From the NCBI RefSeq assembly GCF_964355755.1, contig NC_092677.1, positions 1,307,001 to 1,371,000 of the forward strand: 64,000 bases of DNA. The letters run 5' to 3'. Positions 6,300-64,000 of this stretch are shown here, in pieces. The notes under the pieces are model-generated. The model was not told the origin of the DNA, made no database searches, and saw nothing but the letters and a program-made list of their open reading frames with translations. The position numbers and the translations under genes were made by a program. Source of the DNA: Antedon mediterranea (lineage: Eukaryota; Echinodermata; Crinoidea; Comatulida; Antedonidae). Position 1 is the first letter of the stretch; each line of letters begins with the position of its first letter.

Positions 6300-6326
6300 C
6301 ATCGACGACAACACCTTTTATATCCA
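6300..6326 (+). pseudogene. Orphan 27-nt Ser/Thr linker micro-exon
   Basis: The exon has an AG acceptor and GTAAAT donor and reads STTTPFIS in phase 1. It matches the linker exons at 7715-7741, 54045-54071 and 61694-61720. The downstream intron sequence (tgcatgagtgcttaaaag) is also shared with 7870-7990. No Ig exon lies upstream and unit A begins 670 bp downstream, so it is a leftover of a lost or duplicated unit. Confidence 0.6.
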
Positions 6327-6994
6327 GTAAATCAACAACATGTAGGTTTTGTTTGCTTTTTGCATTTTTATTTCCGTAAACTTCCGGGTTTTTGCATTTG
6401 CGTTAAGCAAATAAAGGATTTAAATGAGAAAGGATATCCCCCTCTATCCCCATGATCTGCATGAGTGCTTAAAAGGGACAATAATGATGATTTGTATATT
6501 TGTCAACACTACATTATTGTAAATAGGTTTAAGACACATGGAAACACTAATCCTTCTGTATTTATTGTTTTGTTTATTGTGATATATATACTGTATATAT
6601 ATAAGTTGTAAGTACAAAGGTTCCAACTGTGTAATTACAATTACATTAAAATGTATATGTAATACATATCATATTAATGATGTTAGAATTGAAGTTTAAC
6701 GTAAATATTTCCATGCAAAAAACATATTGTGAGTGCAATTTCGGTGGTTTAGTTGTAAATGCTTTTATTATTATTGCCTACTTATTTTTATAATCTAAAT
6801 AAACGTGAACAAATATCATTTTAATGATAAAACATGACTAGCTGCATGGAGAGGGAATGAGCTCGTCAGACAGACCAGGACCACAGCATAGCCAAGAAAG
6901 AAAGGAATAACTGGCACCAGTTGGGAGAGGACTTTTCCCAGAAGTGGGGCGATATGAGGAAAGAAAGAAACATTAGCTTGACCATTCAGTTGGA
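6327..6994. other. Intergenic, with array-unit homology
   Basis: 6440-6550 is homologous to unit A intron sequence near 7870-7990 and to 61820-61920. 6838-6960 contains a short stretch whose translation resembles the end of a LINE reverse transcriptase, too degraded to call. Confidence 0.4.
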
Positions 6995-7385
6995 ATGGGG
7001 TTTTGCTTAATATTGTTAGTTTATTTGTTTTATTTTCTTTTAGTTACAAACGGTCAAACTGAACCTGTAGTCAATGTACAAGATGCTGTTGTCAAATTAG
7101 GTGACGATACTGTTATCAGCTGTTATTACACACTTAGTGGTACAAGAACACTTCAGGCTGTTCAGTGGTTCAGTAGCACATCAACAGGAGTTAGGTTAAA
7201 CCAACTTGTTAATAGTGCAGATACAAATTCAAATGGTAGATACGCAGTTGATACCACACAAACTGGTGTAGCTACTCTCACGATTGCAGACACAGTGTTG
7301 TCTGATGATGGATACTATCTATGTAGGATTATTGATTCACCTGCTATTGAAACTGGTGAAGATTATGGAAAACTTACTGTTCAAC
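6995..7385 (+). CDS. Unit A exon: V-set Ig domain with in-exon leader
   Basis: First recognisable exon of receptor unit A. The V-set domain has the B-strand Cys in VISCYY, a W in AVQWF, and DDGYYLC around the F-strand Cys. The exon ends CAA C|GTAAGT in phase 1. Paralogues suggest an acceptor AG at 7043-7044 preceded by a pyrimidine tract, with a separate upstream signal exon, but none was found for this unit. Reading from the ATG at 6995 instead gives a strong hydrophobic leader, MGFCLILLVYLFYFLL, so an unspliced leader is possible. The protein continues to the linker (7715), membrane (8119), 33-nt (8385) and tail (8562) exons, all in agreeing phase. Predicted product: a type I membrane receptor with one V domain. 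Confidence 0.75.
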
Positions 7386-7509
7386 GTAAGTATCGGAAAT
7401 TGATAAGAAATATGAGAAAAACTAAATCCCATGCAAGATCATTAATTTATTTTGCCTTTACAAACTAGTTTTGAATTAAATAGAATTCTCTGTTAGAACA
7501 ACAACAACA

Positions 7510-7556
7510 AAAACGGAAACTTAGTAATACATCCACACTGTCGGTAGGTTGGTTGG
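7510..7556 (+). pseudogene. Remnant of the I-set exon 3' end in unit A
   Basis: The words ggaaacttagtaat and acactgtcggtaggttggttgg match I-set exon ends in other units. The rest of the exon is missing, so unit A lost its second Ig domain by a deletion joining the V intron to the tail of the I-set exon. Confidence 0.6.
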
Positions 7557-7714
7557 AATAAACTGTTTATGCAATAATATCATTGTTTATAGTTTATCTT
7601 GTAATGAAAATAAAGCACAGGTACACAGTGAAAACTGGAAGTTTCAGTTTCAGTAATACTTATAATAATGAATGTTTTATTATCATTGCAATTGTTTATT
7701 TTCTATTTCTGTAG

Positions 7715-7741
7715 CATTAACGACAACTTCTTCTATATCCA
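7715..7741 (+). CDS. Unit A exon: 27-nt linker
   Basis: Acceptor TAG, donor GTAAGT, phase 1-1, reading LTTTSSIS. This Ser/Thr stalk is likely O-glycosylated. Because both the V exon and this exon are phase 1, V joins directly to the stalk without a frameshift. Confidence 0.65.
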
Positions 7742-7886
7742 GTAAGTCAACAACATGTAGGTTTTTTGCTATTTGCATTTTTATTTACGGGTTTATGTTT
7801 TTTATGTCCAGGTTTTGCATTTGTGTTAAGCATATAAAGGATAGAAATGGAAAGGGATATCCCCCTCCATCCCCATGATCTGCATG

Positions 7887-8083
7887 AGTGCTTAAAAGGG
7901 CAAATAATGATGACCTTTGTATATATTTGTCAACACTACATTATTGTAAATATGTTTAAAATCGCATGGTAACACTGTACTAATAATTAGTACAGTGTTA
8001 CCATGCGATTTTAAACATATTTACAATAATGTAGTGTTGACAAATATATACAAAGGTCATCATTATTTGCCCTTTTAAGCACT
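7887..8083. repeat. Perfect 98-bp palindrome with 1-nt spacer
   Basis: Arms 7887-7984 and 7986-8083 are exact reverse complements around one A at 7985. The left arm is ordinary unit intron, homologous to 6460-6550, so the right arm is an inverted copy of it. It sits in the intron between the linker and membrane exons of unit A. Confidence 0.9.
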
Positions 8084-8114
8084 TAAACTAAACAATTATT
8101 GTTTAGTTTTAAGT
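8081..8114. repeat. Second fold-back hairpin, overlapping the first
   Basis: 13-bp perfect arms (8085-8096 region and 8098-8109 region) around a 1-nt spacer at 8097, extended by 4 bp past a 1-nt bulge. It starts inside the last three bases of the 98-bp palindrome and ends at the acceptor of the membrane exon (8119). Confidence 0.8.
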
Positions 8115-8118
8115 ACAG

Positions 8119-8258
8119 AATTTCCAAAGAGTGAGGGCGTATGTAATTCAACTGGTCTTGTTGTTGGAATGACGTTTGTTGGTGTGCTCATTGGATTCAT
8201 TCTCAGTTTGATTGTGGGTTTTATTATCATCAGCAAAATAAGGAAGACAAAGTCACAG
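8119..8258 (+). CDS. Unit A exon: transmembrane segment
   Basis: 140 nt, phase 1 in and phase 0 out. It reads SKFPKSEGVCNSTG, then a membrane segment of about 25 residues (LVVGMTFVGVLIGFIL and on), then the basic stop-transfer KIRKTKSQ. Homologous exons at 17450, 54232 and 62300 are all broken, so this is the only intact copy of this membrane exon in the window. The acceptor (AAGTACAG) lies next to the fold-back hairpin. Confidence 0.75.
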
Positions 8259-8384: not shown

Positions 8385-8417
8385 GCACCGACATCGAAAA
8401 ACGCCAGCCAATCAGGG
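8385..8417 (+). CDS. Unit A exon: 33-nt cytoplasmic exon
   Basis: Phase 0-0, reading APTSKNASQSG, with AG acceptor and GTAAGG donor. Homologous 33-nt exons at 54474-54506 and 62571-62603 support it. Confidence 0.65.
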
Positions 8418-8561: not shown

Positions 8562-8648
8562 CTGCAAGAGTATATGACTTATACTGGAGAGACAGATAAA
8601 AAAACAAACCACACATACCAAGATTTACAGAAGAAAGACGATAATTAA
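8562..8648 (+). CDS. Unit A exon: cytoplasmic tail with tyrosine motifs
   Basis: The terminal exon encodes 28 residues with EYMTYTG and HTYQDL and ends DDN-stop (TAA 8646-8648). YQDL is a YxxL motif, usable by SH2 proteins or endocytic adaptors; it is not a strict ITIM because the -2 residue is His. In unit E the equivalent codon is CAA and the frame continues QAVYVNV; B reads QAVYVNA. Unit A therefore appears to have lost a YVNV (pYxN, Grb2-type) motif to a C-to-T change. The lost tail is still visible to about 8690. Confidence 0.7.
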   Translation: MQEYMTYTGETDKKTNHTYQDLQKKDDN

Positions 8649-9863: not shown

Positions 9864-10199
9864 TGGGCCAAAGTATCAACAAACTCACTGCCAAATCACA
9901 AGTTGCAATTGAAGGACAGGACGCCATTACATTACCATGTTACTACATACCAACAAACGCCGTGATCGGCAAATACTACTGGAAGAAAAACGAGATGGTA
10001 ATTGCAAGAAAGGACGACTCAGATGCTGCGTCTAGATACTCGCTGAGTAATCCAAAGCAGGGTGATACTGCAGGATATATTAGCTTGACTATAACAAATG
10101 TTAGCAGACGAGACGCAGACTCGTACACGTGTGGAGTAAACGACGAGTCTACTGGAGCTACTATACTCTTCCAGACGAAATGTACTTTAACTGTATATT
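9864..10199 (+). CDS. Unit B exon: V-set Ig domain
   Basis: 336 nt, phase 1-1, with a long pyrimidine tract and CAG acceptor and a T|GTAAGT donor. Key V-set residues are the Cys in TLPCYY, the Trp in YYWKK, a SLTITN strand and DADSYTCGV with the second Cys. The sequence differs strongly from the A/D/E/G V domains, so V types are diverse within the array. The next usable exon is the I-set at 16591, with a 5.2-kb DIRS element between. Predicted product: a secreted-pathway surface receptor; the gene's 3' half is damaged. Confidence 0.75.
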
Positions 10200-11529: not shown

Positions 11530-12500
11530 CCTATAACCTAGGCTTTAGCACCGCTGCTGCTACTGGCGCCATGGTTGCAGAAATGTCCCTTAAATAATGC
11601 TCAGAAAACGAAGACTGTGTCCGCCACCATGCCGCTGTCATAATGTCTGATATAGAACCGCCAGCGTACAACGCGAAGTGCTGGACGATTCATAAGCGGC
11701 CCGAGTCGCTGCCACGACCCAGTTGCAATCGTGGATTTTGCGGCCGGCCGATACGGGGGCACCGATGTGACGAATAAGTGAGATATACCCTCTCGCAACG
11801 TCTCTGTACGGTGGATGTAGAATTTGAGTGCTCTTACCGGGCACCAGGATGTGTCCTCTACTACCCCCGAGAATGCGGACATTGATGGAACGAACACAGC
11901 CGGCGAAAAATTTAACGTCTGGGACTTGGCCAGAAAGTCCTTCCTGAATAATAACCGGACTCCACCACGCTCAAATCGTATATGGCCTGGCTCTAGCGTG
12001 AGCGCATGTAGCTCGCCTCAGCGTTTACATGAGGACAACGCCACCAGAAACGCTGTCTTAAGCGAGAGATTATATAATGAAGCCTTGCTCATTGGCTCAA
12101 ATGGCGGGCGAGTGAGTGCGGATAGAACGACGTTAACGTCCCAACGTGGAACTAAGACCTTAGACGGAGGTCGCTCTCTGAACATACCGCGTAACAACTG
12201 CGTGATTACTGCGGAAGTTGAAAACCGTCGAGCCATTCTTGAATGGCGGCGTAATGGCCGCAATCGCGGACCGGTAGCCTGACACCGTGCGCACTTGCAA
12301 GCATGATTCGTACAGGTAATGCAGAAAAGCGCAGATCTGACCCAAGGATATCGCCTTATGGTCTATGTTATCTTGTCCGCACCAGCGAAAGAAGTGTCGT
12401 AGACGGCTGTTGTAGACAGTGAGAGTCGACTCTCTTCCAGATGATATGCCCGAGTCTCTGAGCTGTTCCCTGACCATGGCCAAACAGTCAGGTTCAGGGA
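11530..12500 (-). pseudogene. DIRS copy 1: tyrosine recombinase relic
   Basis: Segments in three frames match the recombinase of the second copy, such as ESTLTVYNSRLRHFF, VSGYRSAIAAI and MSKASLYNLSLKTAF. A TGA at 12018-12020 replaces the CGA codon right after the first catalytic Arg (RRGE becomes R-stop-GE), probably CpG decay. Other frameshifts lie near 12160-12260 and 11830-11900. Inactive. Confidence 0.8.
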
Positions 12501-14298
12501 TTGTAGATTGATCGTCGAGAACCTCGCACGATTTTGCGTCAGTAGATCCGCGCGGACCGGAAGACGCAGCGGGTGATCGTAAAGAAGACTGGCAAGAAGC
12601 GGATACCACGCTCGACGAGGCCAGAACGGTGCGATCAACAGAACTCGGCATCGGAAGCGCTGAATGTGAGTCAGAACTATTGGTATGATCGATACCGGCG
12701 GGAACGCGTACGCCCATAAACCGTCCCATGACATGGACAGGGCATCCACCGCCCACGCACGTGCATCCCGGAATCGACTGCAGAATGTCGGGAGCTGCGT
12801 GTTCTCTGACGTCGCAAACAGGTCTATGTGCGGCCGTCCGAAGTGGTCGAATATTTGAGTGGCTATGCTCGGCAACAGACGCCATTCGGTCGGGCGTAAA
12901 GCGAGTCGGGACAGCGTGTCCGCGACTCATTCTGGCTGCCCGGAATATGCGATGCAGTCAGCGTTATTCTGTGCGCGATGCACCAGTGTATGAGCGTCCA
13001 TGTGTGGTAGCAAAGAGTCGGAGACTCCGTGCCTCCTTGTCGGTTGATGTACGCGACCACGGTTGTGTTGTCCGAGCAGACATGGACGTGTGAATTTTTT
13101 ATGTTTGGAAGTAGCGCTTTCAACGTTCGGTCTACTGCCCAAAGTTCTAAGAGATTGATGTGGGCTAACGCCTCCTCGGCACTCCAAACGCCGGAGACGT
13201 GACTCTGGTTGGAGCAACCGCCCCAACCCGCTTCGGACGCGTCCGTTTCTATTCGGGTGTCCGGAATTGATCTCTGAATTGATCTGCCCACTAACAATCG
13301 GCCGTCCGTTAGCCACCATTGGAGGTGCGTTACAATGAACGCCGACATCGGGACCACTTTGTCTAATGAGTCTGAACCTGGCCGGTAGAAGGCTAACAGA
13401 TGAACTACAGCGGCTGCATCCGTAGCCGACAAAACGGAACTAGATCTACAAAGCTGGCTGGGAAACCTAGCGTTCTCAGCCAGTCGTATGCTGTCGGAGC
13501 GGAAGCGGTAATCAGGCCTTGTATAGCAGCAAGGGCTTTGGTTACTCGTTTCTGTGAGGGGCACACTCTGCCCGACACGAGATCTATCTGCGCTCCGAGA
13601 TACATGGGATGCTGAGTCGGCACCAGGCACAACTTTTCCCGGTTCACTATGAACCCTACGCGTTCCGTTACGAGAAGGACGCAATTGAGACTGCTCACCA
13701 GCCGGTCCTTGGACTGAGCCACGATTAACCAGTCGTCTAGATACATGAATATGCGAATGCCGTGCTTGTGAAAGAACGCACCGAGCGCTCGAACTATGCG
13801 CGTGAACACGCGCGGAGCCGTTGATAGGCCGAACGACATCGCGACGAACTGGTGAAGACAATTGTTGATTCGAAACCGCAACCAACGTTGGTCTTCTTTT
13901 GCGATTGGTACGTGAAAGTACACATCTTTTAAATCTGTCGATGCGGCCCAGTCTCCTCGTCTTAGCCCTAACAGGATCGATGAGACTGTCTCCATCCGAA
14001 ACCTGCGGGGCCGAATAAATCGTTTGTTCAGACGTCTTAGATTTATAATTGGTCGCCAGTCCCCCGAGGACTTCTTGGTTAAGAATACGGTTGATTCGTG
14101 GCCCGAGCCCGCATGATGTTCTTCGACCCTTACTACGGCTCCTTTTTGGAGCAGCGCGGCAATCCCGTCCATAAGCACTCGTTGCTTTATTGGATCTTTG
14201 GGGATTGTGGTCGGACGAGGACCTCCACACACTGGAGGGCTCGTAAATTCTATGCGGTAGCCGTAGCTAAGTGTGGAGAGAATCCAGCTGTCTACCAT
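12363..14298 (-). pseudogene. DIRS copy 1: reverse transcriptase / RNase H relic
   Basis: The RT is open from 14298 to 13405 and includes the FMYLDDWLIV catalytic motif and DWRPIINLR. It stops in RLRMQPL-stop, where copy 2 reads on, with a one-base deletion beside it. The RNase H part (IETDASEAGWGG, CSDNTTVVAYINRQGG) then continues in another frame. A further shift after HIPGSQN is followed by the C-terminal IDLFATSENTQLP region (12875-12363). At least three lesions separate it from a working enzyme. Confidence 0.8.
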
Positions 14299-14380
14299 CA
14301 GCTACTCCCACTCTCGGACGAACCGTAGGAGACGACCTCCCACTGGTCCGGCCCCCGACGGCACGGACCTCGCCTGCACG

Positions 14381-15761
14381 TTACCGGCACCTGCGGTCAC
14401 CACGTCGCAAACCGCGGTCCCGACGTGCTCCCCTACCCGGCTTACCGCCACGCGCGGGGCGGGAATTACGGGGTCGCGACGGCCCAGGAGTCTGCCCAAC
14501 CTCAGACTGATTACGGACCGACGGCGGCGGTTGTGAGATCGATGGCACCACCGGCAGTGGGGCTGGAGGCGTTTTGCGTGATCTCGTCTCGCGACGTGCC
14601 TCTCGCTCGCGAGCCCACTTATTTTTCTTCTCGGCGAAATTACCGTAGAAGAGATCCACAGCACCGAACGACCCGCTAGTTGTGAAGCGGTCAATTGACC
14701 CTCCGCACGGTGGCCGAGGTCATTGAAATTGTCACTTGTTGGTCCACGACCAGGCCCGTAAACTGCTGAAGCAAGCAGATCACGTCCGCGTCAAGGTGCC
14801 GTGGATGGTCCGGATCCGCGAGGAATGACAGAAGGTAGCCCGACATCAAGACCGTTCGTAACGACCGCGATTAGCGCCTCCTCAGTTCTGGCGGCCGAAG
14901 GAGACAGAAATCTGCCGTTGGCGTCGAGACCTTGATCCTCGCGCGCACGCTTCTTTCGCTGCATCCGGGATCGGTGGTGCCGATATATAGCGTTGAAAAC
15001 TGGTCCTGCGGAGGCGGGAAGGCTGCTGCGAGATCTTGAGATGCAGCTCTACGGGTTTTAGGCTCCTTCGCTATAGCCTCTACCCTAACGACAAGTTCGG
15101 GATCCAGCGGCGCAACTGGACAAGTCGTGACCCGCTTCAATGGAGCACGCACCCCAAAGGTAGAGTACCTCTTCGAAGCCGGCGCGGGCGTCGGCGCGTC
15201 ATAGGCGTACTCTACTCAAATGTACAAAAGTACAGCAGGAACCACACGATTGACAAGAGCCTGCAAACCGTCTCCACCCTGTGCGATCCTCACTAGGCAG
15301 CGAGGTCATGGTCCTGTCACTGTCGTACCCACCGACATCCGGCGATGGGTGCGTCCCTCGACCTTGAAAGTACTGCGGAGGCAGAACTGGCACAGGAGGA
15401 TAATTAAGCGAGGATGCCGAGGGCACAACCTCCCTCGGTAGAGCTCGCACCGCTGCCGCGATGGCCTCCAGTACGGGTGGGAACAAACCCTCGTCCTGCG
15501 TACCACTCTGCGGTGGAGGCGCAGCGGCCGTTGCAAGCGCGCGGTCTCTTCTACTAGCGGGGCCACCTGAACCTCCACGGGTGCGGGGTCTACCACCCGC
15601 ACACGCCCCAACGGACGTCCGGACCGCGAAGCCGTCCAACGTACAAAAACGTCGCACGGCGACTCCTGGCTACAGGTGCGGCAGTGAATGCACAGCAAGT
15701 GGCGGTCCCACTTGACTGTCGCACGCTGGCCCCTGCATTGCCAACATTCAGACTTAGGCAT
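14381..15761 (-). pseudogene. DIRS copy 1: Gag-like ORF relic
   Basis: It begins MPKSECWQCRGQRATVKW with a Cys-rich N-terminus (CxxC repeats, CRTC) like copy 2 at 24985. The rest is spread over several frames with stops. Confidence 0.65.
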
Positions 15762-16167
15762 ATCCGGGCACAGAACGCAACCTAGCAAGATAAAGAACAA
15801 TACCACCTGACGACGGCTTTGTTGTTGTTTCACGCAACAGTGCGTCCACGCCTCAGCTGAGGCAGTCCAGGTGGCAATGCAAATTGCTTTTCCTTTGTCT
15901 TCCGGTAGCGTGGCCGTTCCGGCCTAAAATCCAACGAAGTGGGTGTTGTTTTCTCCTTCTTAATCTTCCTTATATCTAAGGAAGACCCTCGGATCAACGA
16001 TATATGAACAATATCAACTGCTGGTACTGCAACAGGCCGTGGGAATACACTCAATATCCTGGCCAAGTCAACTAGTAATCAGCGTAATAGAAATCTTTGT
16101 ATAGTATGTACAGTGTACAATCCTAACACTTGGTATCATACGACGTAACGCTCTCACGTTACGAAAG

Positions 16168-16590: not shown

Positions 16591-16881
16591 ATCTTGAAAA
16601 ACCAATTCTTAATCCAACACAATTGTTTACAAATATTGGTGAAACAGCAACATTCACATGTACTGAACCTGATGGTTTACCACCGATTAACATCACATGG
16701 ACCAAAGATGATGTCATCCTTGATTATTCTGATACACAAAAGTATCGGTTTTTTTATGCTACATTAACAATTAATAGAGTAGATGAAGAAGATGAGGGAG
16801 TTTATCAGTGTAAAGCAGAGAATGCTGCTTATCATGGAATGCAAGGAAAACTAAGCAATAATGTTACTCTCATCACATTAG
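16591..16881 (+). CDS. Unit B exon: I-set Ig domain
   Basis: 291 nt, phase 1-1, with TTACAG acceptor and G|GTGGGT donor. It shows the I-set hallmarks TATFTCTEPDG (first Cys), ITWTKDD (Trp), LTINRVDEEDEGVYQC (second Cys) and AENAAYHG. It joins in frame to the V exon at 9864-10199 and to the membrane exon at 17450. The same-length exon occurs in units D and E. Confidence 0.75.
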
Positions 16882-17449: not shown

Positions 17450-17550
17450 GTTCAACTTCGACGGGTCTTGTTGTTGGAATGACGTTTGTTGATGTGCTCA
17501 TTGGATTCATTATCTGTTTGCTTGTTGATTTTATCATCAGCAAATTATAG
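17450..17550 (+). CDS. Unit B exon: transmembrane segment with early stop
   Basis: Phase 1 in, reading STSTGLVVGMTFVDVLIG and then IICLLVDFIISKL, ending at TAG 17548-17550 where unit A reads KIRKTKSQ. Two Asp replace Gly inside the membrane segment. If used, the receptor would be anchored but tail-less. The stop is upstream of further exons, so transcripts could be unstable. Gene or pseudogene cannot be settled from sequence. Confidence 0.5.
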
Positions 17551-17707
17551 AAGACAAATCCACAGGTAAAGCATAATTCTGATTCAGAAAATAGAACCAT
17601 AAAATAAGAGTAAAATGCTCAATAATTAGTAAACTACCGCGGTACACCGCATAAGTAATGAAATGTATTAACAATAAAAAGTGCTTTTTGATGTTTTATG
17701 TTTTTTC

Positions 17708-17733
17708 TACATCGAAAAACGACAACCAATCAG
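17708..17733 (+). pseudogene. Unit B 33-nt exon relic
   Basis: The 3' part and GTAAGG donor match unit A, but the 5' part with its AAAG acceptor is deleted. Confidence 0.5.
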
Positions 17734-17872
17734 GAGTAAGGATGCCATACTTCAACTTTCATTACTCACTTTCACTTGTCATCATCATTATCAATGTCAC
17801 CAATAGGTTTACAAGATTGTATTTCTTTTCGTTTATGTTCATGCAATAAACTGCTCTATTTTTTTTAAACAG

Positions 17873-17985
17873 GCGTTATTATGACTTATACCAGAGAGAC
17901 AGATCAAGAAACAAACCACACATACCAATATTTACAGAAGAAAGATCAAGCTGTATATGTAAATGCAGAGAATGACAACAGATAA
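17873..17985 (+). pseudogene. Unit B cytoplasmic tail exon relic
   Basis: Homologous to 8562-8690. A deletion at the start shifts the frame. The remaining frame reads MTYTRETD, NHTYQYLQ and QAVYVNAEND before TAA at 17983-17985. This shows that the ancestral tail had the second tyrosine motif. Confidence 0.6.
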
Positions 17986-19553: not shown

Positions 19554-19913
19554 TTTTATTCTGCATTTGTTATGGAGTGTCTGTAAATATCAACAACTTA
19601 GATGCTGTACATGAAGGCTCTGACACAAGAATGACATGTACATATACAAGAGACAGTAGTACTAGTTCAAGTGATCCTATTGTGACATGGAATAACATCA
19701 TAGACGGGGAAGCAGATAGAATATCAGCAACTCAGAGTGGATCTACAATCATAGAACCTTCGTACCAAGAGAGATTTGGCGTTGATAGAGATGATGATAA
19801 AATTCTTGTGATTACTAACACTTTGCGAATTGACAGTGGCACATATCAATGTGAAGTTGTTATATTTGATGACCCACCTGTTGATGATGGTACTGTGACA
19901 TTAAATGTGGTAT
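19554..19913 (+). CDS. Unit C exon: V-set Ig domain
   Basis: 360 nt, phase 1-1. The acceptor is TTTAG after a T-rich tract and the donor T|GTACGT. Domain marks are RMTCTYTRD (first Cys), IVTWNN (Trp), and DSGTYQCEV (second Cys). The loop between strands is long and rich in Ser and Asp. It is unlike the other V domains here. Downstream, past a DIRS insertion, come EGF-like exons of matching phase, so this gene pairs a V domain with EGF repeats instead of an I-set and membrane exon. Confidence 0.7.
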
Positions 19914-20461: not shown

Positions 20462-21514
20462 CTATAGACGAGGCTTCAGTACTGCTGTCGCCACTGGAGC
20501 TAGGTTAGCGGACACATCCGAAAGATAGTAAGAGGTGAATGTAGACTGTGTTCGCCACCATGCCGCTTCCATAATGTCAGCTACAGGGACACCCGCGAAC
20601 AACGCCCACGAAGTGGCAACCGCGCGCAATTGATGCATGTGTGCCGGCGGCGGTGTGTCCGATGACGTGTAAGCGTTTTGAATTGTAGATACGACCCACC
20701 TTGCTATGGTCGATTTAGCTGCGGCGCGGTGTGGCGGAACAGAGGTGACAAACAGGTGAGACACTCCGTCTCTAATTGTCTTTGTGCGGTGGATATACCA
20801 CTTGAGGGCCCTCACTGGGCACCAAAGTTTGTCTCCGTCAACCGCCGAGTAAGATGTGATGGTGGGGACGAACACAGCCGGCGGCGAATATTTCAACGTC
20901 TGAGTTTTTGCTAGGAAATCTTTCCTAAACACTAGCCTCACGCCGCCTCGCTCGAACCTCACATGCCCTGGTTCTAAGGTAAGAGCGTGCACCTCGCCTC
21001 GGCGTCTGCACGATGACAATGCGAGCAGGAACGCCGTCTTCAGCGAGAGATTGTAAAGAGAAGCCTTACTCATAGGCTCAAATGGCGGGCGTGTAAGAGC
21101 GGCTAGAACGACGTTGACATCCCATCGAGGAATCAAGACCTTGACTGGAGGTCGTTGTCTGAACATCCCCCGTATCAGCTGAGTGATAACGGAGGATGAC
21201 GAAATCGTAGAACCGTCTTTCAGTGTTGGTGTCACCGCCCCAATGGCGGACCTATAGCCTGAAATGGTGCGGACCTGAAGACCTGACTCAAATAGGTAAT
21301 GCAGGAAGGCGCATACTTGACCAAGGGTAACCAACCCTGGCGTTATTTGTTGGCGCCTGCACCATGTAAAGAAATGCTTTAATCGGCTATTGTAGACGGT
21401 AAGAGTAGATTCCCGACGAGATTTCGCCGCGAGGGCGGCAGGGCCATCTGGAATGCCTGAGTCTCGGAGCTGATCCCTGACAATGGCCATACAGTCAGGC
21501 GCAGGGATTGTAGG
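20462..21514 (-). CDS. DIRS copy 2: tyrosine recombinase (YR)
   Basis: The C-terminal 350 residues of a 952-codon open frame (20462-23320) form a tyrosine recombinase that would integrate the circular DNA intermediate. Visible are an N-terminal SAM-like region (LTVYNSRLKHFFTW, ISGYRSAIGAV), the first catalytic Arg in SCRRRGEVHAL, the HxxR box in HMHQLRAVATSW, and the nucleophile region WWRTQSTFTSYYLSDV. It overlaps the end of the RT ORF by about 135 bp in another frame. The upstream 600 codons of this frame overprint the RT ORF and are probably not protein, though DIRS elements are known for long overlaps. The start codon is uncertain. Confidence 0.85.
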   Translation of the reverse strand, partial: PTIPAPDCMAIVRDQLRDSGIPDGPAALAAKSRRESTLTVYNSRLKHFFTWCRRQQITPGLVTLGQVCAFLHYLFESGLQVRTISGYRSAIGAVTPTLKDGSTISSSSVITQLIRGMFRQRPPVKVLIPRWDVNVVLAALTRPPFEPMSKASLYNLSLKTAFLLALSSCRRRGEVHALTLEPGHVRFERGGVRLVFRKDFLAKTQTLKYSPPAVFVPTITSYSAVDGDKLWCPVRALKWYIHRTKTIRDGVSHLFVTSVPPHRAAAKSTIARWVVSTIQNAYTSSDTPPPAHMHQLRAVATSWALFAGVPVADIMEAAWWRTQSTFTSYYLSDVSANLAPVATAVLKPRL

Positions 21515-23682
21515 TTCTGTAGTGAGAACACAGCTCGGCCCTGCGTCAGCAGATCCTCTCGAACTGGAAGACGCAGGGGATGATCGTAGAGCAGGTCGAG
21601 AAGCAGTGGATACCATGCTTGTCGAGCCCAGCCCGGGGCGATCAGAAGGACCCGGCAAGGATGGCGCTGAATGTGCGTCAGAACAGTTGGTATTAGTGAG
21701 ATCGGTGGAAACGCATAAGCCCATAGTCCGTCCCACGGTATGGATAGGGCATCCACCGCCCACGCACGTGCATCCCGAAACCTTGTGCAGAAGGTCGGGA
21801 GCTGTGTGTTGTCTGACGTCGCAAACAGATCTATATGAGGCCGCCCGAAGTGGTCGAAAATCAGTGTGGCAATGCTGGGTAGAAGGCGCCATTCCGTGGG
21901 ACAAAGTGTTTGTCGGGACAGAGCGTCCGCCACAATGTTGAGGCTGCCCGCAATGTGGGCAGCCGAGAGTTTGATGTTGTTGCCTATGCACCACATCATC
22001 AGTCTCCAGAGGTGGAAGCATAACGTCGGTGACCTCGTGCCTCCCTGACGATTTATATATGCTACCACTGTTGTGTTGTCGGAATGGATAAGGACGTGAC
22101 GACCGGCCACGTGAGGTCGAAGGGCCTTCAAGGTCCTGACGACTGCCCAGAGTTCTAGGAGGTTGATGTGGGAGCGCGCCTCCTCGACCGTCCAAAGGCC
22201 GGAGGCGCGGAGTGCCCTGGAGCAACCGCCCCAGCCTGTCTCGGATGCGTCTGTCTCTATACGGACGTCCGGCAAAGATTTTTGAATCGGCATTCCCACA
22301 GTCAACCTGCCTTCTACCAGCCACCATTCGAGATGCGTCTGAATGAATGCATTCGACGGAACCACTTTGTGTAGGGAGTCTATGTGCGGTCGGTAATGAG
22401 CCAGCAGATGCAGCTGTAAAGGTCTCATACGTAGCCGGCAATACGGAACCAAGGCAACGAAGCTGGCCAGACAACCCAGTGCTCTGAGCCATTCGTAAGC
22501 CGTCGGAGCACGAGCAGATATTAGATTGCGTACTGCACTCATTGCAGACGCGATGCGTTGTTGGGATGGACACGCCAAGCCCGTCACGAGATTTATCTGT
22601 GCTCCGAGGTATAACGGGAGCTGTGTCGGCACCAGGCACGACTTCTCCCGATTGACAATGAAACCTGCCTGTTCCGTTACGAGAAGGACATATTGTAGAC
22701 TGCTCATCAGCCTGTCCCTGGACTGGGCCACGACCAACCAATCGTCGAGATACATGAATACTCTTATTCCATGTTTGTGGAAGAACGACGCCAGCGTTCT
22801 GACTATGCGTGTAAACACGCGAGGAGCCGTCGATAGGCCGAACGGCAAAGCGACGAATTGGTACAATTGGTCGAGGATTCTGAAACGTAGCCAACGTCGA
22901 TCTGCCTCTGCGATAGGAACGTGAAAGTACGCATCTTTCAGGTCTATCGAGGCTGCCCAGTCTCCTCGTCTTAGCCCCAGAAGGATGGATGAGACTGTCT
23001 CCATCCGAAACCTTTGGGGCCGAATAAACCGCTTGTTTAGACTCCTCAGATTTAAAATAGGTCGCCAGTCGCCTGTCTTCTTTTCTGTGAGGAAGACGGT
23101 CGACTCGTGTCCCGAGACGGCGCATCGTTCGTCGACTGGTTCTACTGCTCCCTTTTGGAGTAGAGAATTGAGGCCGTCCAGAAGCGCACATCTCTTTAGA
23201 GGCTCTGGCGGAATTCTTGTCGACCGAGCGCCCCCGCTCACCGGGGGGCTCGTAAATTCGATGCTGTAGCCGTTTTTTATGGTGGCGAGAATCCACCTGT
23301 CCTCCGACAGGGTCTCCCACACTCGGGCGAACCGTCCTAGGCGACCCCCCACCTGCCCGTCGATGTTGGGGACGGGCGTACCGATCGCGTCACCGGCGAC
23401 GCGCGAACGCACCCGGACGCCTGCCGCTCTTATGGCTGGCGTCATATCTTCCGGGCCTGCCTCGTGCAGGTCGGGGATATCTGTTGATGTCATGTGGGGT
23501 GCGAACGCGGGAAGAAGTAGAAGCCTGCGTATCAGGACGCGCCGGTGTCGGTACTGGCGGTTGCGTTGGCGGTACTGGAGCCGGAAAAGGGGGAGGCGGT
23601 CTGGATGGTCCCGAACGTCCACGGCTAGCCCGACGTTTCTGCGGGAATCTCGATCGAGTTTCACGACGTGCCTCCCGCTCAC
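21379..23682 (-). CDS. DIRS copy 2: reverse transcriptase-RNase H
   Basis: 767 codons. From about residue 120 comes IEFTSPPVSGG, then the RT palm with DWRPILNLR, SIDLKDAYFHVP, the QFVALPFGLSTAPRVF stretch and the catalytic FMYLDDWLVV. RNase H follows with IETDASETGWGG, INLLELWAV, HSDNTTVVAYINRQGG and HIAGSLNIVADALSR. The C-terminal IDLFATSDNTQLPTF domain is typical of DIRS elements; no DPPY methyltransferase motif is seen in it. The ORF overlaps Gag by about 290 bp and the YR ORF. No stop or frameshift is visible. Confidence 0.88.
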   Translation of the reverse strand: MSGRHVVKLDRDSRRNVGLAVDVRDHPDRLPLFRLQYRQRNRQYRHRRVLIRRLLLLPAFAPHMTSTDIPDLHEAGPEDMTPAIRAAGVRVRSRVAGDAIGTPVPNIDGQVGGRLGRFARVWETLSEDRWILATIKNGYSIEFTSPPVSGGARSTRIPPEPLKRCALLDGLNSLLQKGAVEPVDERCAVSGHESTVFLTEKKTGDWRPILNLRSLNKRFIRPQRFRMETVSSILLGLRRGDWAASIDLKDAYFHVPIAEADRRWLRFRILDQLYQFVALPFGLSTAPRVFTRIVRTLASFFHKHGIRVFMYLDDWLVVAQSRDRLMSSLQYVLLVTEQAGFIVNREKSCLVPTQLPLYLGAQINLVTGLACPSQQRIASAMSAVRNLISARAPTAYEWLRALGCLASFVALVPYCRLRMRPLQLHLLAHYRPHIDSLHKVVPSNAFIQTHLEWWLVEGRLTVGMPIQKSLPDVRIETDASETGWGGCSRALRASGLWTVEEARSHINLLELWAVVRTLKALRPHVAGRHVLIHSDNTTVVAYINRQGGTRSPTLCFHLWRLMMWCIGNNIKLSAAHIAGSLNIVADALSRQTLCPTEWRLLPSIATLIFDHFGRPHIDLFATSDNTQLPTFCTRFRDARAWAVDALSIPWDGLWAYAFPPISLIPTVLTHIQRHPCRVLLIAPGWARQAWYPLLLDLLYDHPLRLPVREDLLTQGRAVFSLQNLQSLRLTVWPLSGISSETQAFQMALPPSRRNLVGNLLLPSTIAD

Positions 23683-24985
23683 GCGCCCACTTATCTTCCT
23701 TCTGGGAGAAACTCCCGAAGAAGAGATCCTTAGCGCCGAAAGATTCCGATGTAGTGAATCTACGATATTGCGCTGGCGCGATATCTGTCCCCTGGAGGAC
23801 GTTGACCCGGCGAGCAGCGGCCGACGTAACGGAAATAAATGCTTGCTGATCAGCGATAAGACCAGTTATTTGCTGCAGCAAAGTGATGACCTCGTCATCG
23901 CGCTCTCTAGGGTGTTCCGGGTCCGCCAGGAACGACAAGAGATAACCAGAAATAGACGTCACGCGTACTGTCTCGCGGGCGGCTCTATCAACTGCGAGAA
24001 GCGTCTCTTCTGTCTTAGCAGCCTTCGGAGCCAAGTAGTTGGTCTTGCCAGCCTCTACGCCCTGGTCCTCTCGGACGCGGTCTTTGGCTGCATCAGGCAC
24101 TCCCGGTGCAATGATGTACTTATCAAATTGCGCTGACGGCACCGGAAACGCCGACGAGAGAATGTACGGTGCGGCTCTACGTGTCGTTGTTGAGTCGCGC
24201 GCAAACATGTCTAAGCGGTCGATCAGTTCTTGGTCGAGAGGCACCACCGGACAGGTAGTGCTTTTCCTAAGAGGCGTACGCACGCCGAAAGTAGAAAACC
24301 GCTTAGTTGAAGGCGTAGGCTTAGGCTCGCGGAGCGAGTAGTCGATTCCAAGATAGGCCAGTACCGCCGGAAGAACTCTGTTCACGAGCGCCTGTAAACC
24401 CTCCTCACCGGGCCCCCTAAGCGACGCGGCTCTCTCCTCATCCGAGAGCGTGACCATAGTGCGATCAGACAAATAGTCGTCTTCCATCGAAGCACCCTCA
24501 GAAAAGGGCGGTAGTGGTGTCTGAGGAGGGGGCACCGGATAATACGGAATCGGAGGACGCTGGGCTGGGGCTACCGTAGGCTCGTCCCTTGGTAAAGCCC
24601 TTACCGCCGCCGCAATGGCATGCAACAACGCCGGAGACAACTCATTAGGGTCCGGGGCTGCAGAGGCCGCAGCGGGAACAGGCGCGGCGCCGAGAAAAAC
24701 CTCCTTCGCAAGTGGAACGGAAGCCACAGGCTCTTCCTCGCGTTGCACGACATCGTGCGTAGCTACCACTGGAGCCGCCACAGGCGCGGACTCCTCCGGA
24801 ACACCGACCTCAACAGTGCGTTCCACGGGCCGCGGAAGCGACGCAAACTTGGCTGGCGTCCAGCGAACGCAAACGTCACACGGGTTATCCTGATTGCACG
24901 TACGGCACTTAATACATCGCATGTGGCGATCCCATTTCACCGTCGTCCGCGGGCCCCTACACTGGACACACTCTTGCTTAGGCAT
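23390..24985 (-). CDS. DIRS copy 2: Gag-like protein
   Basis: The open frame extends to 25015, but the ATG at 24985 (MPKQECVQCRG) is preferred because copy 1 begins MPKSEC at the same place. The N-terminus has CVQC, HMRCIKCRTC and NPCDVC, a Cys/His-rich zinc-binding-like module of about 40 residues. An Ala/Pro-rich middle and an Arg-rich C-terminus follow (KWAREREARRETRSR), consistent with nucleic-acid binding. Family assignment rests on position within the element. Confidence 0.75.
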   Translation of the reverse strand: MPKQECVQCRGPRTTVKWDRHMRCIKCRTCNQDNPCDVCVRWTPAKFASLPRPVERTVEVGVPEESAPVAAPVVATHDVVQREEEPVASVPLAKEVFLGAAPVPAAASAAPDPNELSPALLHAIAAAVRALPRDEPTVAPAQRPPIPYYPVPPPQTPLPPFSEGASMEDDYLSDRTMVTLSDEERAASLRGPGEEGLQALVNRVLPAVLAYLGIDYSLREPKPTPSTKRFSTFGVRTPLRKSTTCPVVPLDQELIDRLDMFARDSTTTRRAAPYILSSAFPVPSAQFDKYIIAPGVPDAAKDRVREDQGVEAGKTNYLAPKAAKTEETLLAVDRAARETVRVTSISGYLLSFLADPEHPRERDDEVITLLQQITGLIADQQAFISVTSAAARRVNVLQGTDIAPAQYRRFTTSESFGAKDLFFGSFSQKEDKWAREREARRETRSRFPQKRRASRGRSGPSRPPPPFPAPVPPTQPPVPTPARPDTQASTSSRVRTPHDINRYPRPARGRPGRYDASHKSGRRPGAFARRR

Positions 24986-26759: not shown

Positions 26760-26882
26760 CGTCAAATGGTTGCTCCAACAACCTTTGTCAGAATGGAGCT
26801 GCTTGTAACACTGTTTCTGGTTCCTGTTCAGCATACACATGTACCTGTTCATCATGTTTTACTGGAACATTCTGTGAGACTC
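26760..26882 (+). CDS. Unit C EGF-like exon 1
   Basis: 123 nt, phase 1-1, CAG acceptor and GTAAGT donor. The domain follows C-x4-C-x5-C-x6-C-x4-C-x-C-x2-C-x5-C with CQNGAAC and FTGTFCET. Eight cysteines exceed the usual six of EGF; the extra pair (fourth and seventh) could form an additional disulfide. Like the exons below, it would be extracellular and add one rigid module per exon. Confidence 0.75.
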
Positions 26883-53028: not shown

Positions 53029-53370
53029 TTGTTACAAAAGGTCAAAATCCTGTTGTCAATGTGCAAGATGCTAACGTTAAATTAGGTGAAGATGCTGTTA
53101 TCATCTGTGATTACACACTTGATCCTACCAGAACTTTTCAGGGTGTTCAATTGTTCAATAGTAATTCAGATGGAGATAAGTTGGAAAAACGTCTTATTAA
53201 TACTTTACAGTCAAATAGAAATGGTAGATATACAGCTGACACCACACAGACTGGTGTAACTACTCTCACCATTGCAAACACAGTGTTGTCTGATGATGGA
53301 TACTATCTATGTAACATTTTTGATTCACTTCTTATCAGTGGTAGTCAACATGGAAATCTTACTGTTCAAT
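53029..53370 (+). CDS. Unit E exon: V-set Ig domain
   Basis: 342 nt, phase 1-1, GTATATAG acceptor and T|GTAAGT donor. Domain marks are VIICDYTLDP (first Cys), GVQLFNSNSD, where Leu replaces the core Trp, and SDDGYYLCNI (second Cys). The missing Trp is unusual for a V domain. The exon is otherwise open and close to units D and G. The unit as a whole has broken signal, membrane and tail exons. Confidence 0.65.
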
Positions 53371-53482: not shown

Positions 53483-53773
53483 ATCTAGAAAACCCTGTTT
53501 TGGAATCAGATGCATTATCTGTCAAGATAAATGAAACGGCAACATTTACATGTACTAACCTTATCGGTAAACGAACACCAATTATTGTCAGATGGAAAAA
53601 AAATGGTAATGCACTTGATGATTCTGATGCAGAAAAGTATCCATCTTCTGATGCAACATTAATTATTAATAAAGTGGATGAAATGGATGAAGGAAGTTAC
53701 CAGTGTGTAGCAGAGAATGCTGCCTATAGTGGAGATGATGGAAAACCGAGTATTCCTCTTATACTCTCAGTAG
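53483..53773 (+). CDS. Unit E exon: I-set Ig domain
   Basis: 291 nt, phase 1-1, TTACAG acceptor, donor G|GTTGGT (weak). Domain marks are ATFTCTNLIGKR, IIVRWKKNG, LIINKVDEMDEGSYQC and AENAAYSGDDG. It lies only 113 bp after the V exon, the original compact spacing; in unit B the same interval holds a DIRS element. Confidence 0.65.
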
Positions 53774-54044: not shown

Positions 54045-54071
54045 CATTGCCAACACCTTCTTCTACATCCA
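54045..54071 (+). CDS. Unit E exon: 27-nt linker
   Basis: TTAG acceptor, GTAGGT donor, phase 1-1, reading LPTPSSTS. It matches the linker of unit A. Confidence 0.55.
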
Positions 54072-54231: not shown

Positions 54232-54350
54232 AAATTCCAAAAAGTGAGGGCATATGTAATTCAACTGGTCTTGTTGTTGGACGTTTGTTGGTGTGCTAAT
54301 TGGATTCATTACCTGTTTGCTTGTGGTTTTTATCATCAGCAAAATCGCAG
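54232..54350 (+). pseudogene. Unit E transmembrane exon, frameshifted
   Basis: Reads KIPKSEGICNSTGLVVG and then loses four bases (GGACGTTTG for GGAATGACGTTTG), shifting the frame to a TAA six codons on. The membrane helix is destroyed. A protein ending here would be secreted. Confidence 0.65.
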
Positions 54351-54473: not shown

Positions 54474-54506
54474 GCACCGACATCAAATAATGACAACCAA
54501 TCAGGA
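54474..54506 (+). pseudogene. Unit E 33-nt exon
   Basis: Intact in frame (APTSNNDNQSG) but the donor is GTAACA and the upstream exon is frameshifted. Confidence 0.5.
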
Positions 54507-54630: not shown

Positions 54631-54763
54631 CTGCAGAGGAGTATATTACGTGTACTGGAGAGGCAGATAAAGAAACAAACCACACGTACGAAGATTTACG
54701 CTGAAGAAAGACGATAACCAAGCTGTATATGTAAATGTTAAAGCAAAGAGGAACAAACAATAA
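54631..54763 (+). pseudogene. Unit E cytoplasmic tail exon, frameshifted
   Basis: Two 2-nt insertions relative to unit A shift the frame. The ancestral frame shows EEYITCTG, NHTYEDL and, after the second insertion, NQAVYVNVKAK before TAA. It preserves CAA where unit A has TAA. Confidence 0.6.
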
Positions 54764-60715: not shown

Positions 60716-61015
60716 GTGAGTAGTAGATGATGCATTTTATACAGAATTAACCCTTATTGACTTTCAAAGTGAGATGATGCTTAAAAATATAAAATATAAA
60801 ATCAAATGCCTATTAATTATCTGGTTGGGGTGCACTGTGAGTAAAAAATACAAATTAAGTTCAGGACAAAGTACAAAAAGAGCAAATGTGGCTGTCATAA
60901 AATATCATAAAAATACAGCTAGTTATGTGTCATACATTTAAGGATATAATTACATTTAGGTCTAATATTTGAACAATATTTTAAAATTGTTAAATGTAAA
61001 CTTTCCATACACAGA

Positions 61016-61389
61016 TCTTGATGAACCAGTTTTTAACCTAATGTCTGTCAACGATGAAACCGCAACATTTAAATGTACTGAACCGGATGGATTGCCAACA
61101 CCAATTACCACCACATGGATCAAAGATGACGTCAGACTTGAGATACTGTCGGTCGTCGTCTTCGTGCAAGGGTGCGTAACTAACGGCTTTGTTGACTGTG
61201 TATGATTTCACGCTTTAGATAGCGAACATTTGATTATATTCGTCGTCTCCTAACCGTCGTGTTTCGTAAAGTCCAAATTAACAATTAATGACGTTGATGA
61301 TGCAGATGAAGGAGTTTATCAGTGTAGAGCAGATAATGCTACTTACAGTGGAACAGATGTGAAACTTAATACTGCTACACTGTCAATAA
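61016..61389 (+). pseudogene. Unit F I-set exon, disrupted
   Basis: The start (TATFKCTEPDGLPTP, TTWIKDDV) and the end (LTINDVDDADEGVYQC) are good I-set sequence. About 130 bp of unrelated sequence from about 61138 to 61275 replaces the middle and brings an in-frame TGA at about 61203. Confidence 0.7.
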
Positions 61390-62296: not shown

Positions 62297-62299
62297 TTA

Positions 62300-62435
62300 A
62301 CGAGTGCGGGCGTATGCATTCAACTGGTCTTGTTGGAATGACGTTTGTTTGTGTGCTCATTTGATTCATTATTTGTTTCTTGTGGGCTTTATTATCAGCA
62401 AAAGTAATAATAAATAAAAAATAAAAAAGTCAAAG
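62300..62435 (+). pseudogene. Unit F transmembrane exon relic
   Basis: Reads STGLVGMTFVCVLI and then TGA (62362-62364), with the acceptor region displaced by the MITE. Confidence 0.65.
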
Positions 62436-62570
62436 GTAAAGAATATTCTGAATCATAAAGTAGAATTACAAAAAAGGAGTAAAATTCTCAAAGGTTACAT
62501 GAACTACGGTACACTGCACAAGTAATGAAATGGATTAACATTAAGTTCTTGTTGATGTTTTATTTTAAAG

Positions 62571-62603
62571 GTATCTACATCAAAAAACAACAACAAATTA
62601 GGG
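62571..62603 (+). pseudogene. Unit F 33-nt exon
   Basis: In-frame VSTSKNNNKLG with AAAG acceptor and GTAAGG donor. The tail exon that should follow is missing; a Helitron copy lies there. Confidence 0.5.
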
Positions 62604-62649
62604 GTAAGGATGCCATACAACTTTCAATACCAATTTTCACTCGTCATTA

Positions 62650-63073
62650 TCTATATATAAATTATTTTACGTAAGGGAAAAATTCGGTAAATCGCCCGTA
62701 CTTCTAGAATTTCTACTCGATGGTATATAAAGTTGGTTCGTACTTTCGGTACTGATTTAGCCACCTGATTTAACCCTGCTTATAAATTAAATTGAGTTAG
62801 ATAATTAGTTATTGACAATTAAAAAGAATTTAGGTTCAACGATTTGCCCCAAATAGGGGTGTTTTCCGTGGTATACATTGTCTAATGGATGTCCATCTTG
62901 AAAAATACCCGCACACAATAATACTATCTCCTTCTACGATAATTGATCAGCTCGAGTACAGCATCATAATGTTGAAGAAAGGCCGAATTTCTTAAAAAAA
63001 TACTATTTGGATATATTTAATATATACGTTTATACAAATGTATTAATTTGCGATGAATGGAACATTCCAATCC
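62650..63073 (+). mobile_element. Non-autonomous Helitron, copy 4 (3'-truncated)
   Basis: Starts A|TCTATATATAAATTATTTTA and aligns with the first 420 bp of copy 3, then ends after ggaacattccaatc. Confidence 0.65.
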
Positions 63074-63312
63074 GTTTGAAGCTTTAAATTCCTCGGTAAA
63101 TAGAGGGCGCATTATTTCGTAAGAAGACAGCACTTTACAAATATTGGAAATATGCTTGTTCACAAAAAGTAATCTAAACATTGGGCCTCCGTACAGTATC
63201 ATGGAGGAAGTAAACACAAATGTAAATCAATTCGCATTCAGAACCATCAGTGTCCTGAGAGACAAGAGTGAAAGTATCATTTTGGATTTTCAGATTGTTA
63301 GGCGTGACCAGC

Positions 63313-63382
63313 ATGTCCTTCTTAACAGAAGTAATGGCGATATGTGAATGTGCACTAATTTTCCTGATTTTCCAAAGCGACT
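63313..63382 (+). CDS. Unit G exon: signal peptide
   Basis: Reads MAICECALIFLIFQSD from the ATG at 63334, ending T|GTAAGT in phase 1. An in-frame upstream ATG at 63313 adds MSFLTEV. The paralogue at 49038 lacks the upstream ATG, so 63334 is preferred. It joins in frame to the V exon (FINGQNPVVN). Confidence 0.7.
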
Positions 63383-63567
63383 GTAAGTAGAAACTTAATT
63401 GTCATATATGTTATTAGTAGGGTCCTACTATTATTTCAACATAGACTATAAGACTGAAATGGCAATGGACGGTGACGTAGTAACCAATTTTTATTTATTG
63501 TATTGTTTGTATTAATTGATTGGTTTCATTAAATATATTACCACGCATTCATTTTCTGTGTATATAG

Positions 63568-63915
63568 TTATAAATGGTCAAAATCCGGTTGTCAATGTAC
63601 AAGATGCTAACGTTATATTAGGTAAGGATGCTGTTATCACCTGTAGTTATACACTCAGTGGTTCAAGAACATTTAATGCTGCTCAGTGGTACAATAGTAA
63701 TTCAGATGGAGATCAGTTAGACATCCTTGTTAATACTGCAGATACAAATCCAAATGGTAGATGTACAGTTAATATCACAACAACAACTCCTCAAAGTGGT
63801 ATAGCTACTCTCACCATTGCAAACACAGTGTTGTCTGATGATGGATACTATCAATGTAGAATTATTGATTCATCTACTTTCTCTGGTGAAAACAACGGAA
63901 ACCTTATTGTTCAAT
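63568..63915 (+). CDS. Unit G exon: V-set Ig domain (gene continues past window)
   Basis: 348 nt, phase 1-1, GTATATAG acceptor and T|GTAAGT donor. Domain marks are VITCSYTLSG (first Cys), AAQWYNSNSD (Trp) and SDDGYYQCRI (second Cys). It is nearly the same as the unit D V domain, with an insertion of a few Thr-rich residues (ITTTTPQSG). Signal and V exons are both intact, so G may be a working gene. The rest lies beyond 64000. Confidence 0.75.
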
Positions 63916-64000
63916 GTAAGTATTAATAAATCCACGAATGATATACTGTATATTTAAGTCATTTAAAAAATAAATTTTGTAAAAAAGGCAACCATCATTT

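Follow-up and report, generated by a model that had tools for sequence, protein, structure and literature searches.

A tandem array of immunoglobulin-domain receptors with diverged V domains and a shared tyrosine-motif tail in the crinoid Antedon mediterranea

What kind of gene system is sampled by a stretch of crinoid DNA in which immunoglobulin (Ig) receptor exons recur from unit to unit? The stretch, here called the window, comprises the 64,000 nucleotides (nt) at C8:1307001-1371000 of the Antedon mediterranea genome (354,431,138 bases in 18 contigs, of which C8 is one). A preliminary description had seen in it a fast-evolving array of Ig receptors with tyrosine tails in an invertebrate, and that view is upheld by the gene models, by the numbers of matches over the whole genome and by the pattern of substitutions. 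We give a probability of about two in three to the reading that the window samples a large germline-encoded complex of recognition receptors, with varied V-domain input and one common, probably activating, output. The division follows from the pairing of one conserved tail with many V domains. A role in innate immunity or allorecognition would fit such a complex.

The exon plan of these receptors (class I) consists of a signal exon ending in phase 1, a V exon (phases 1-1), an I-set exon of about 291 nt (1-1), a 27-nt linker exon (1-1), a membrane exon (1-0), a 33-nt exon (0-0) and a tail exon running from phase 0 to the stop. This order of exons, already proposed in the preliminary description, was confirmed base by base and with consistent phases in unit G, the last of the window. 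Its signal exon (63313..63382, plus strand, gene model) and V exon (63568..63915, plus strand, Pfam V-set 2.1e-13) lie inside the window, and the I-set, linker, membrane, 33-nt and tail exons follow up to C8:1372312; when spliced, they read as a single open protein of 343 amino acids (aa). Across the array the plan holds widely. When the exons 3′ of the signal exon were tested in 39 units having V, membrane and tail exons, 21 kept the whole set intact (open frame, phase, splice sites, linker and 33-nt exon), comprising 8 alpha, 9 gamma, 3 beta and 1 delta by V type. The 18 failures combine true decay with the limits of the I-set motif used; since this motif missed real I-sets (e.g. C8:1385828 and 1517127), 21 of 39 is a lower bound. 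A signal exon with the donor GTAAGT, in two related forms, is present for all eight intact alpha genes. According to the gene models, the product of an intact gene is predicted to be a single-pass membrane protein: a V and a single I-set domain stand on a short stalk rich in Ser/Thr, the membrane helix is glycine-rich and free of charged residues, and the tyrosine tail is 42 residues long.

The array is larger than the preliminary description had it, with at least 63 tail copies in a complex of more than 1 megabase (Mb) on C8 that holds two receptor classes and includes the window. Genome-wide matches are counted as exon pieces (some genes give two), and all such counts are lower bounds. The alpha V exon gave at least 57 matches, 49 of them within C8:1.00-1.66 Mb. 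For the I-set exon there were at least 107 (150 of 193 candidates scored), with 68 within C8:1.06-1.66 Mb, five of these on the minus strand, and for the membrane exon at least 72, with 67 within C8:1.02-1.63 Mb. The crowding of I-set (68/107) and membrane-exon (67/72) matches into C8:1.02-1.66 Mb is far above chance. The class I tail search gave at least 80 matches, and the 67 within C8:1.12-1.63 Mb, every one on the plus strand, represent at least 63 distinct copies after merging of split halves; 48 of the 63 are stop-free and span at least 39 of the 42 residues. Other V queries gave at least 49 (gamma), at least 25 (C type) and at least 6 matches (B type, unit B included). The gene-model set, made up of the window and 25 further pieces (300,501 bases in total), holds 51 plus-strand V exons (55 matches minus two frames judged non-Ig and two I-set mis-hits), 61 membrane and 62 tail matches, fragments counted. 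Grouping of these yielded 65 units or fragments. In 33 the four exon types V, I-set, membrane and tail are all present, but the one at C8:1275825, where the I-set sits 3′ of the tail, is mis-grouped.

The V exons encode V-type Ig domains. The Pfam V-set cut-off (PF07686, 26 bits) was exceeded by window units A, B, C, D, E and G, and the I-set cut-off by B, D and E, in agreement with the domains named in the preliminary description; Ig_2, Ig_3 and I-set lead the Pfam matches of the second domain of B, D and E. Beyond the window units, V-set scores of 27.0 bits (beta), 43.2 bits (class II) and 40.6 bits (a C11 copy) were also above the cut-off. The gamma domain scanned reached 20.5 bits, below the cut-off, and the delta domain scanned had no V-set match; both pass PF00047. 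By sequence, the unit G V domain was closest to pIgR (E 5.8e-09), together with T-cell receptor (TCR) and antibody V chains (best 60 of 182 distinct Protein Data Bank sequences), and its structure, predicted from four window sequences, was nearest to antibody and TCR V domains (best Foldseek E 6.0e-04, TM 0.56 when scaled to query length). The canonical cysteine pair is intact in most V domains, and the V exons end, by eye, in GxLTV or similar.

The V domains had been described as very different and the I-set, linker and membrane exons as conserved, and this was found: identity is 28% between alpha and gamma V and 46% over all V pairs, against 66% for the I-set, 82% for the membrane exon and 88% for the tail. 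To follow this contrast along the gene, nucleotide identity was taken by segment in the 21 intact units, with gaps counted as differences, from 40 of 67 within-type pairs, 60 of 143 between-type pairs and a shuffled control of six pairs per segment (values in that order). Upstream of V it was 0.54, 0.38 and 0.36, and in V itself 0.83, 0.50 and 0.29. Intron 2, just 3′ of V, is at chance level between V types (0.49, 0.25 and 0.26). From the I-set onwards the exons were alike within and between types: I-set 0.84, 0.76 and 0.30; linker 0.88, 0.81 and 0.30; membrane exon 0.91, 0.89 and 0.32; 33-nt exon 0.93, 0.90 and 0.41; tail 0.94, 0.92 and 0.34. The noncoding segments among them gave 0.66, 0.57 and 0.37 (intron 3), 0.68, 0.44 and 0.24 (intron 4), 0.84, 0.77 and 0.34 (intron 5), 0.83, 0.71 and 0.39 (intron 6) and 0.73, 0.68 and 0.36 (3′ flank). 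Since protein function cannot keep introns and flank similar, the 3′ halves must share recent ancestry or be homogenised across V types. Thus, the V exons are long diverged while the 3′ halves are common to the V types, and the two parts of the gene have partly separate histories. A tree of the I-set exons from 23 units joins three alpha with four gamma genes (96/95) and sets six further alpha genes in a group of their own (100/100). The same six stand apart on the membrane-to-tail tree (100/100), where beta genes occur in three places, one of them with two alpha genes (98/98). None of alpha, gamma and beta forms a single clade on either tree. These separate histories may have come about either through V cassettes being exchanged or through gene conversion in the 3′ halves.

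Comparison of the ratio of nonsynonymous to synonymous change (dN/dS) between V loops and I-set exons had been suggested as a check. For whole exons, Nei-Gojobori medians were taken within V types (36 V, 30 I-set, 34 membrane and 30 tail sequences). Median V values were 0.74 (alpha), 0.61 (beta), 0.69 (gamma) and 1.15 (delta), compared with 0.52-0.72 for the I-set. The tail, at 0.22-0.36, is under constraint (dN/dS about 0.3). Loops resembling complementarity-determining regions (CDRs) were then placed by the two cysteines and the tryptophan, giving 453 codons pooled over four V types, 155 of them in loops. The nonsynonymous proportion pN was 0.196 in CDR-like loops versus 0.092 in framework, a difference as large arising in 0 of 5000 permutations, and pN/pS was 1.04 versus 0.63. 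Amino acid change is therefore focused on the regions that form the binding site in an antibody. A loop ratio of 1.04 does not establish selection above neutrality: most bootstrap ranges for loops include 1, the beta CDR3-like loop is an exception at 0.53, and dN/dS exceeds 1 only in delta V (six genes) and the delta CDR3-like loop (five distinct sequences). Positive selection proper is not claimed.

The class I tail has the form YMTY-x11-YQDL-x9-YVNV. Among the 45 tails of at least 36 aa (out of 62 tail matches), all three tyrosine motifs are present in 41, and the last two are spaced nine residues apart in 44. YVNV also conforms to pYxN, the type of site bound by SH2 domains such as that of Grb2, and is similar to LAT in this. 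These features suggest how the receptors may work. The V loops would bind varied ligands, which may be microbial, self or V-plus-EGF-like proteins; receptor clustering would then let a Src-family kinase phosphorylate the tail tyrosines, which would recruit SH2 proteins. YQDL and YVNV might act like an immunoreceptor tyrosine-based activation motif (ITAM) through a Syk-type tandem SH2 protein, and/or YVNV might recruit Grb2 via pYxN, so that many V domains would share a single activating output. The repertoire itself would arise by tandem duplication, with the 3′ halves shared through some exchange or conversion and a steady loss of copies, and each animal would inherit a fixed receptor set. 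Pairing with an adaptor through a charged membrane residue was rejected, as no such residue was found in the intact membrane exons on inspection by eye.

Several results weigh against a complex of varied receptors with one activating output. The strict ITAM consensus (Yxx[LI]-x6-12-Yxx[LI]) fits 2 of the 45 class I tails, V standing at position +3 of the last tyrosine; if V is permitted there, 43 of 45 fit. The consensus of the corresponding inhibitory motif (ITIM, [SIVL]xYxx[ILV]) fits 0 of 45. Canonical ITAM or ITIM identity for these tails was therefore rejected, and the failure of the strict ITAM leaves the activating reading weak. In the sister receptor class, class II, both tails read contain an ITIM-like SAYVNV. 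Raised dN/dS is seen in the I-set and also in the membrane exons (0.59-0.83), and the pairs compared are not independent. Synonymous change is itself somewhat higher in CDR-like loops (pS 0.188 versus 0.146 in framework, 304 of 5000 permutations), and a pN/pS of about 1 is also what relaxed constraint would give. The structural model of the V domain is of modest confidence (mean pLDDT 65.5), and signal exons are settled for alpha-type genes only, rather than for gamma, beta or delta. Finally, genes of one V type lie strongly clustered in each of the two 3′ trees, which require 4 and 6 changes of type where the minimum is 3; with shuffled V-type labels the mean was 11.0 changes, and a number as low as observed was reached in 0 of 200 shuffles. 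Exchange was therefore limited, and a small number of exchange or conversion events is enough to explain the trees.

This clustering also lowered somewhat the probability of a more specific reading, in which germline recombination places V cassettes, of four or more diverged types, onto one shared I-set/membrane/tail module. The inherited repertoire so made would signal through one output, LAT-like or ITAM-like, and would be linked to partner genes of V plus EGF-like exons, as a crinoid complex of histocompatibility type. We regard that reading as doubtful.

The candidate partner genes are represented in the window by the gene called C, which the preliminary description had counted as a unit of the shared plan. 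This count does not hold: the C-type V exon (19577..19912, plus strand, Pfam V-set 2.7e-08) is followed by seven EGF-like exons (26771..29625, plus strand), with no I-set, membrane or tail exon. The EGF-like exons were recognised by cysteine pattern alone, and the three scanned had no Pfam match; a later exon in a sister copy matches Pfam EGF at 2e-06. EGF-like matches lie 3′ of five of seven close C-type V copies, while the copies at C8:1215913 and 1599975 have none among those listed (150 of 1805 candidates). No membrane exon was recognised in the V-plus-EGF-like genes. This gene class recurs across the receptor array (window 19577-29625; C8:1196088, 1580624, 1612976 and 1633811). A short tandem repeat at 29798-30082 of the window lies 3′ of the EGF-like exons and is longer in the sister copy, around C8:1586829-1587415.

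Class II receptors lie at C8:0.62-1.09 Mb and consist of a V domain, an Ig domain and a weak Ig/PKD-like domain under Pfam cut-offs, plus a related membrane helix; the tail shows the class I layout (YMDY, TYQDLQ and AYVNVKA; two genes read). Spacing of the last two tyrosine motifs is 8 and 10 residues in the two tails read. At least thirteen class II tails were found at C8:0.62-1.09 Mb and one on C7, with two more on C6 and one carrying a stop at C8:8.16 Mb. A distant second Ig cluster at C8:4.71-5.78 Mb has at least 35 I-set matches at about 30-40% identity, and one piece of it reads as V, Ig and Ig domains and a frame with YQAL-x9-YQEL, which is strict ITAM spacing.

Could the complex instead govern self/non-self contact, with the V-plus-EGF-like genes as ligands or partners of the receptors, as in the fuhc locus of Botryllus and the allorecognition complex (ARC) of Hydractinia? 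Receptor and V-plus-EGF-like genes are interspersed in one complex, and Ig arrays with tyrosine tails are described in both of those systems. The Botryllus schlosseri locus likewise mixes Ig genes with a receptor family, the fester co-receptors (FcoR), whose members, at 53 loci so far, combine a variable Ig domain with tyrosine motifs in the tail (PMC12065747). The crinoid array is like FcoR in having multigene variable Ig domains with tyrosine tails in a complex shared with other Ig genes. However, FcoR as described there is V-sushi-C2-C2, and the ectodomains here are built otherwise: an I-set follows V in class I, an Ig and the weak Ig/PKD-like domain follow it in class II, and no sushi domain was seen. 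Furthermore, FcoR is described as a mixed activating and inhibitory set with ITIM, hemITAM and core motifs, whereas the class I tails have a single form. Adult crinoids, moreover, form no colonies. Allorecognition as the function of the complex is accordingly judged unlikely.

A non-immune adhesion or recognition family, serving gamete, neural or tissue contact and grown by local duplication with largely neutral V diversity, would accommodate a loop pN/pS near 1, which relaxed constraint explains as readily as selection does, and I-set domains are typical of adhesion molecules. However, amino acid change is gathered in the CDR-like loops, where synonymous change differs far less from framework, and the multi-tyrosine tail is conserved in two receptor classes; we consider this family improbable. 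A mostly dying array with few working genes, whose alike 3′ halves reflect recent duplication only, is highly improbable, even with one of seven window units intact, two transposon-like insertions and 18 of 39 tested units failing (some through motif limits), because 21 units are intact, the tail is under constraint, and recent duplication alone cannot give a chance-level intron 2 beside alike introns 5 and 6.

The reading of the complex as recognition receptors with varied input and a common output therefore stands first, and it was compared with further known systems. Hydractinia Alr is a 41-gene family with V-set and I-set domains (PMC11999971). Its likeness to the crinoid array, by description, lies in a multigene V-set and I-set family with ITAM/ITIM-type motifs. 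Most V domains here keep the canonical cysteine pair, whereas Alr domains are unusual. The hydrozoan Alr complex, an early candidate in view of the array and of a hydroid genome with 17 chromosomes, was dropped as an identity for the array because the Hox cluster of this genome is ambulacrarian in type (see below). Sea urchin IgV-IgC1 receptors are likewise echinoderm membrane receptors with a V-type Ig domain (PMC3308324); here, however, the second domain is I-set by Pfam rather than C1, and the section describing them mentions no such array or tail. Oyster CgIgIT2 is another invertebrate Ig receptor with a tyrosine-motif tail, in its case an ITAM, and it recognises microbes and signals through ERK (PMC11999971); it differs in having five Ig domains and is not described there as an array. 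The crinoid genes can also be set beside a vertebrate family. Teleost NITRs have a V and a second Ig domain in tandem, a membrane helix and a tyrosine tail, and are multigene and fast evolving, all of which the crinoid array shares; unlike NITRs, it has no J-like FGxG strand (by eye), no class I ITIM and no charged membrane residue. No known system was shown to match, as FcoR, urchin IgV-IgC1 and NITR each depart in a tested feature. A literature search found no report of an echinoderm array of such receptors among its top-ranked results, which covered few subscription journals.

A colonial tunicate, a hydroid and fish have large families of Ig receptors that carry signalling tails. The crinoid array would add a case between chordates and cnidarians, in the sister group of the other echinoderms, and would bear on the question of whether repertoires of V-type Ig recognition go back to the deuterostome ancestor or evolved several times. 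Its diverged V cassettes and shared signalling module are directly comparable between individuals.

The window had been described as holding at least seven units of one exon plan, at all stages from open to ruined. The plan stands, in unit G and in the 21 intact units, and so does the decay; the count of uniform units does not, since A, C, D and F deviate from the plan, B and E are decayed (F being a fragment), and G, most of which lies beyond base 64000, is the sole intact unit. Unit A (plus strand) has an alpha V exon at 7044..7385 (Pfam V-set 1.8e-08; splice model), a 27-nt Ser/Thr linker exon at 7715..7741 (splice model), a membrane exon at 8119..8258 (100% match to the copy at C8:1189544), a 33-nt exon at 8385..8417 (gene model) and a tail exon at 8562..8648. 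It has no I-set, about 330 nt separating V from linker, and a stop that follows codon 28 removes YVNV from its tail; the copy at C8:1189994 has its stop in the same position. Unit B, also on the plus strand, has a B-type V exon at 9864..10199 (Pfam V-set 2.4e-07; ends set from the copy at C8:1191301), an I-set exon at 16591..16881 (end approximate; Pfam I-set 6.7e-14), for which no splice donor of the usual form was found, and decayed membrane and tail exons at 17455..17979, recognised by membrane and tail matches. It is split between V and I-set by a putative minus-strand element at 11601..16000 (ends approximate), whose open frames resemble, by eye, those of a second putative element within the C gene (20462..25027, minus strand, two long open frames). 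One piece of the latter has a weak Phage_integrase match (0.0039, below cut-off) and another matches no Pfam family; we take both elements to be DIRS-like.

Unit D, on the minus strand, consists of an I-set exon at 40880..41170 (Pfam I-set 3.2e-11) and an alpha V exon at 43470..43832 (Pfam V-set 1.6e-10), both given as match limits; no membrane or tail exon was found for it, and the membrane and tail searches gave no minus-strand match on C8. Unit E (plus strand) has an alpha V exon at 53029..53370 and an I-set exon at 53483..53773 (both Pfam and splice model), a linker exon at 54045..54071 and a 33-nt exon at 54474..54506 (both gene model), a frameshifted membrane exon at 54232..54350 (membrane-exon match) and a tail exon at 54639..54763 (tail match) with a frameshift after YEDL. 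Unit F (plus strand) is reduced to an I-set fragment at 61010..61205, seen by eye with no Pfam match at E 0.1, and a membrane-exon fragment at 62308..62361 (membrane-exon match). The window also contains a long interspersed nuclear element with endonuclease and reverse transcriptase (55556-58534) and a reverse transcriptase fragment (28126-28791), and no RNA families at gathering threshold or tRNAs were found in it.

Elsewhere in the array, pairs of receptor exons with equal scores lie about 125-133 kb apart (C8:1385307/1516606, 1397549/1530931, 1389173/1522558 and 1188424/1313995), which reflects either a segment duplicated recently or haplotypes assembled as duplicates. At C8:1267803-1267958 an I-set exon is fused to a run reading as poly-tyrosine, i.e. 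a microsatellite inside a receptor copy.

A complete ordered Hox cluster lies at C2:7793581-8206132, in the order Evx, 11/13c, 11/13b (inverted), 11/13a, 9/10, 8, 7, 6, 5, 4, 3, 2, 1, the gene labels being assigned by reading the homeodomains. Hox11/13a-c and 9/10 beside Hox8 are the ambulacrarian set, and by these labels the cluster is of that type. Hox clusters are described as rearranged in sea urchins and a brittle star and ordered in a sea star. No match to mitochondrial COX1 was found in the genome. All 104 homeobox matches listed (150 of 163 candidates scored) are on contigs C1-C11, and the highest positions observed on these contigs add up to at least 336 of the 354 Mb, which suggests about 11 chromosomes. 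About 11 have been given for Antedon; a range of 36-46 diploid chromosomes described for most echinoderms does not fit. A hemichordate identity was rejected, as two hemichordate species have 23 chromosomes. Four of them, at C8:12532856-12535357, fall within one open frame of 3044 aa, which is probably a multi-homeodomain factor.

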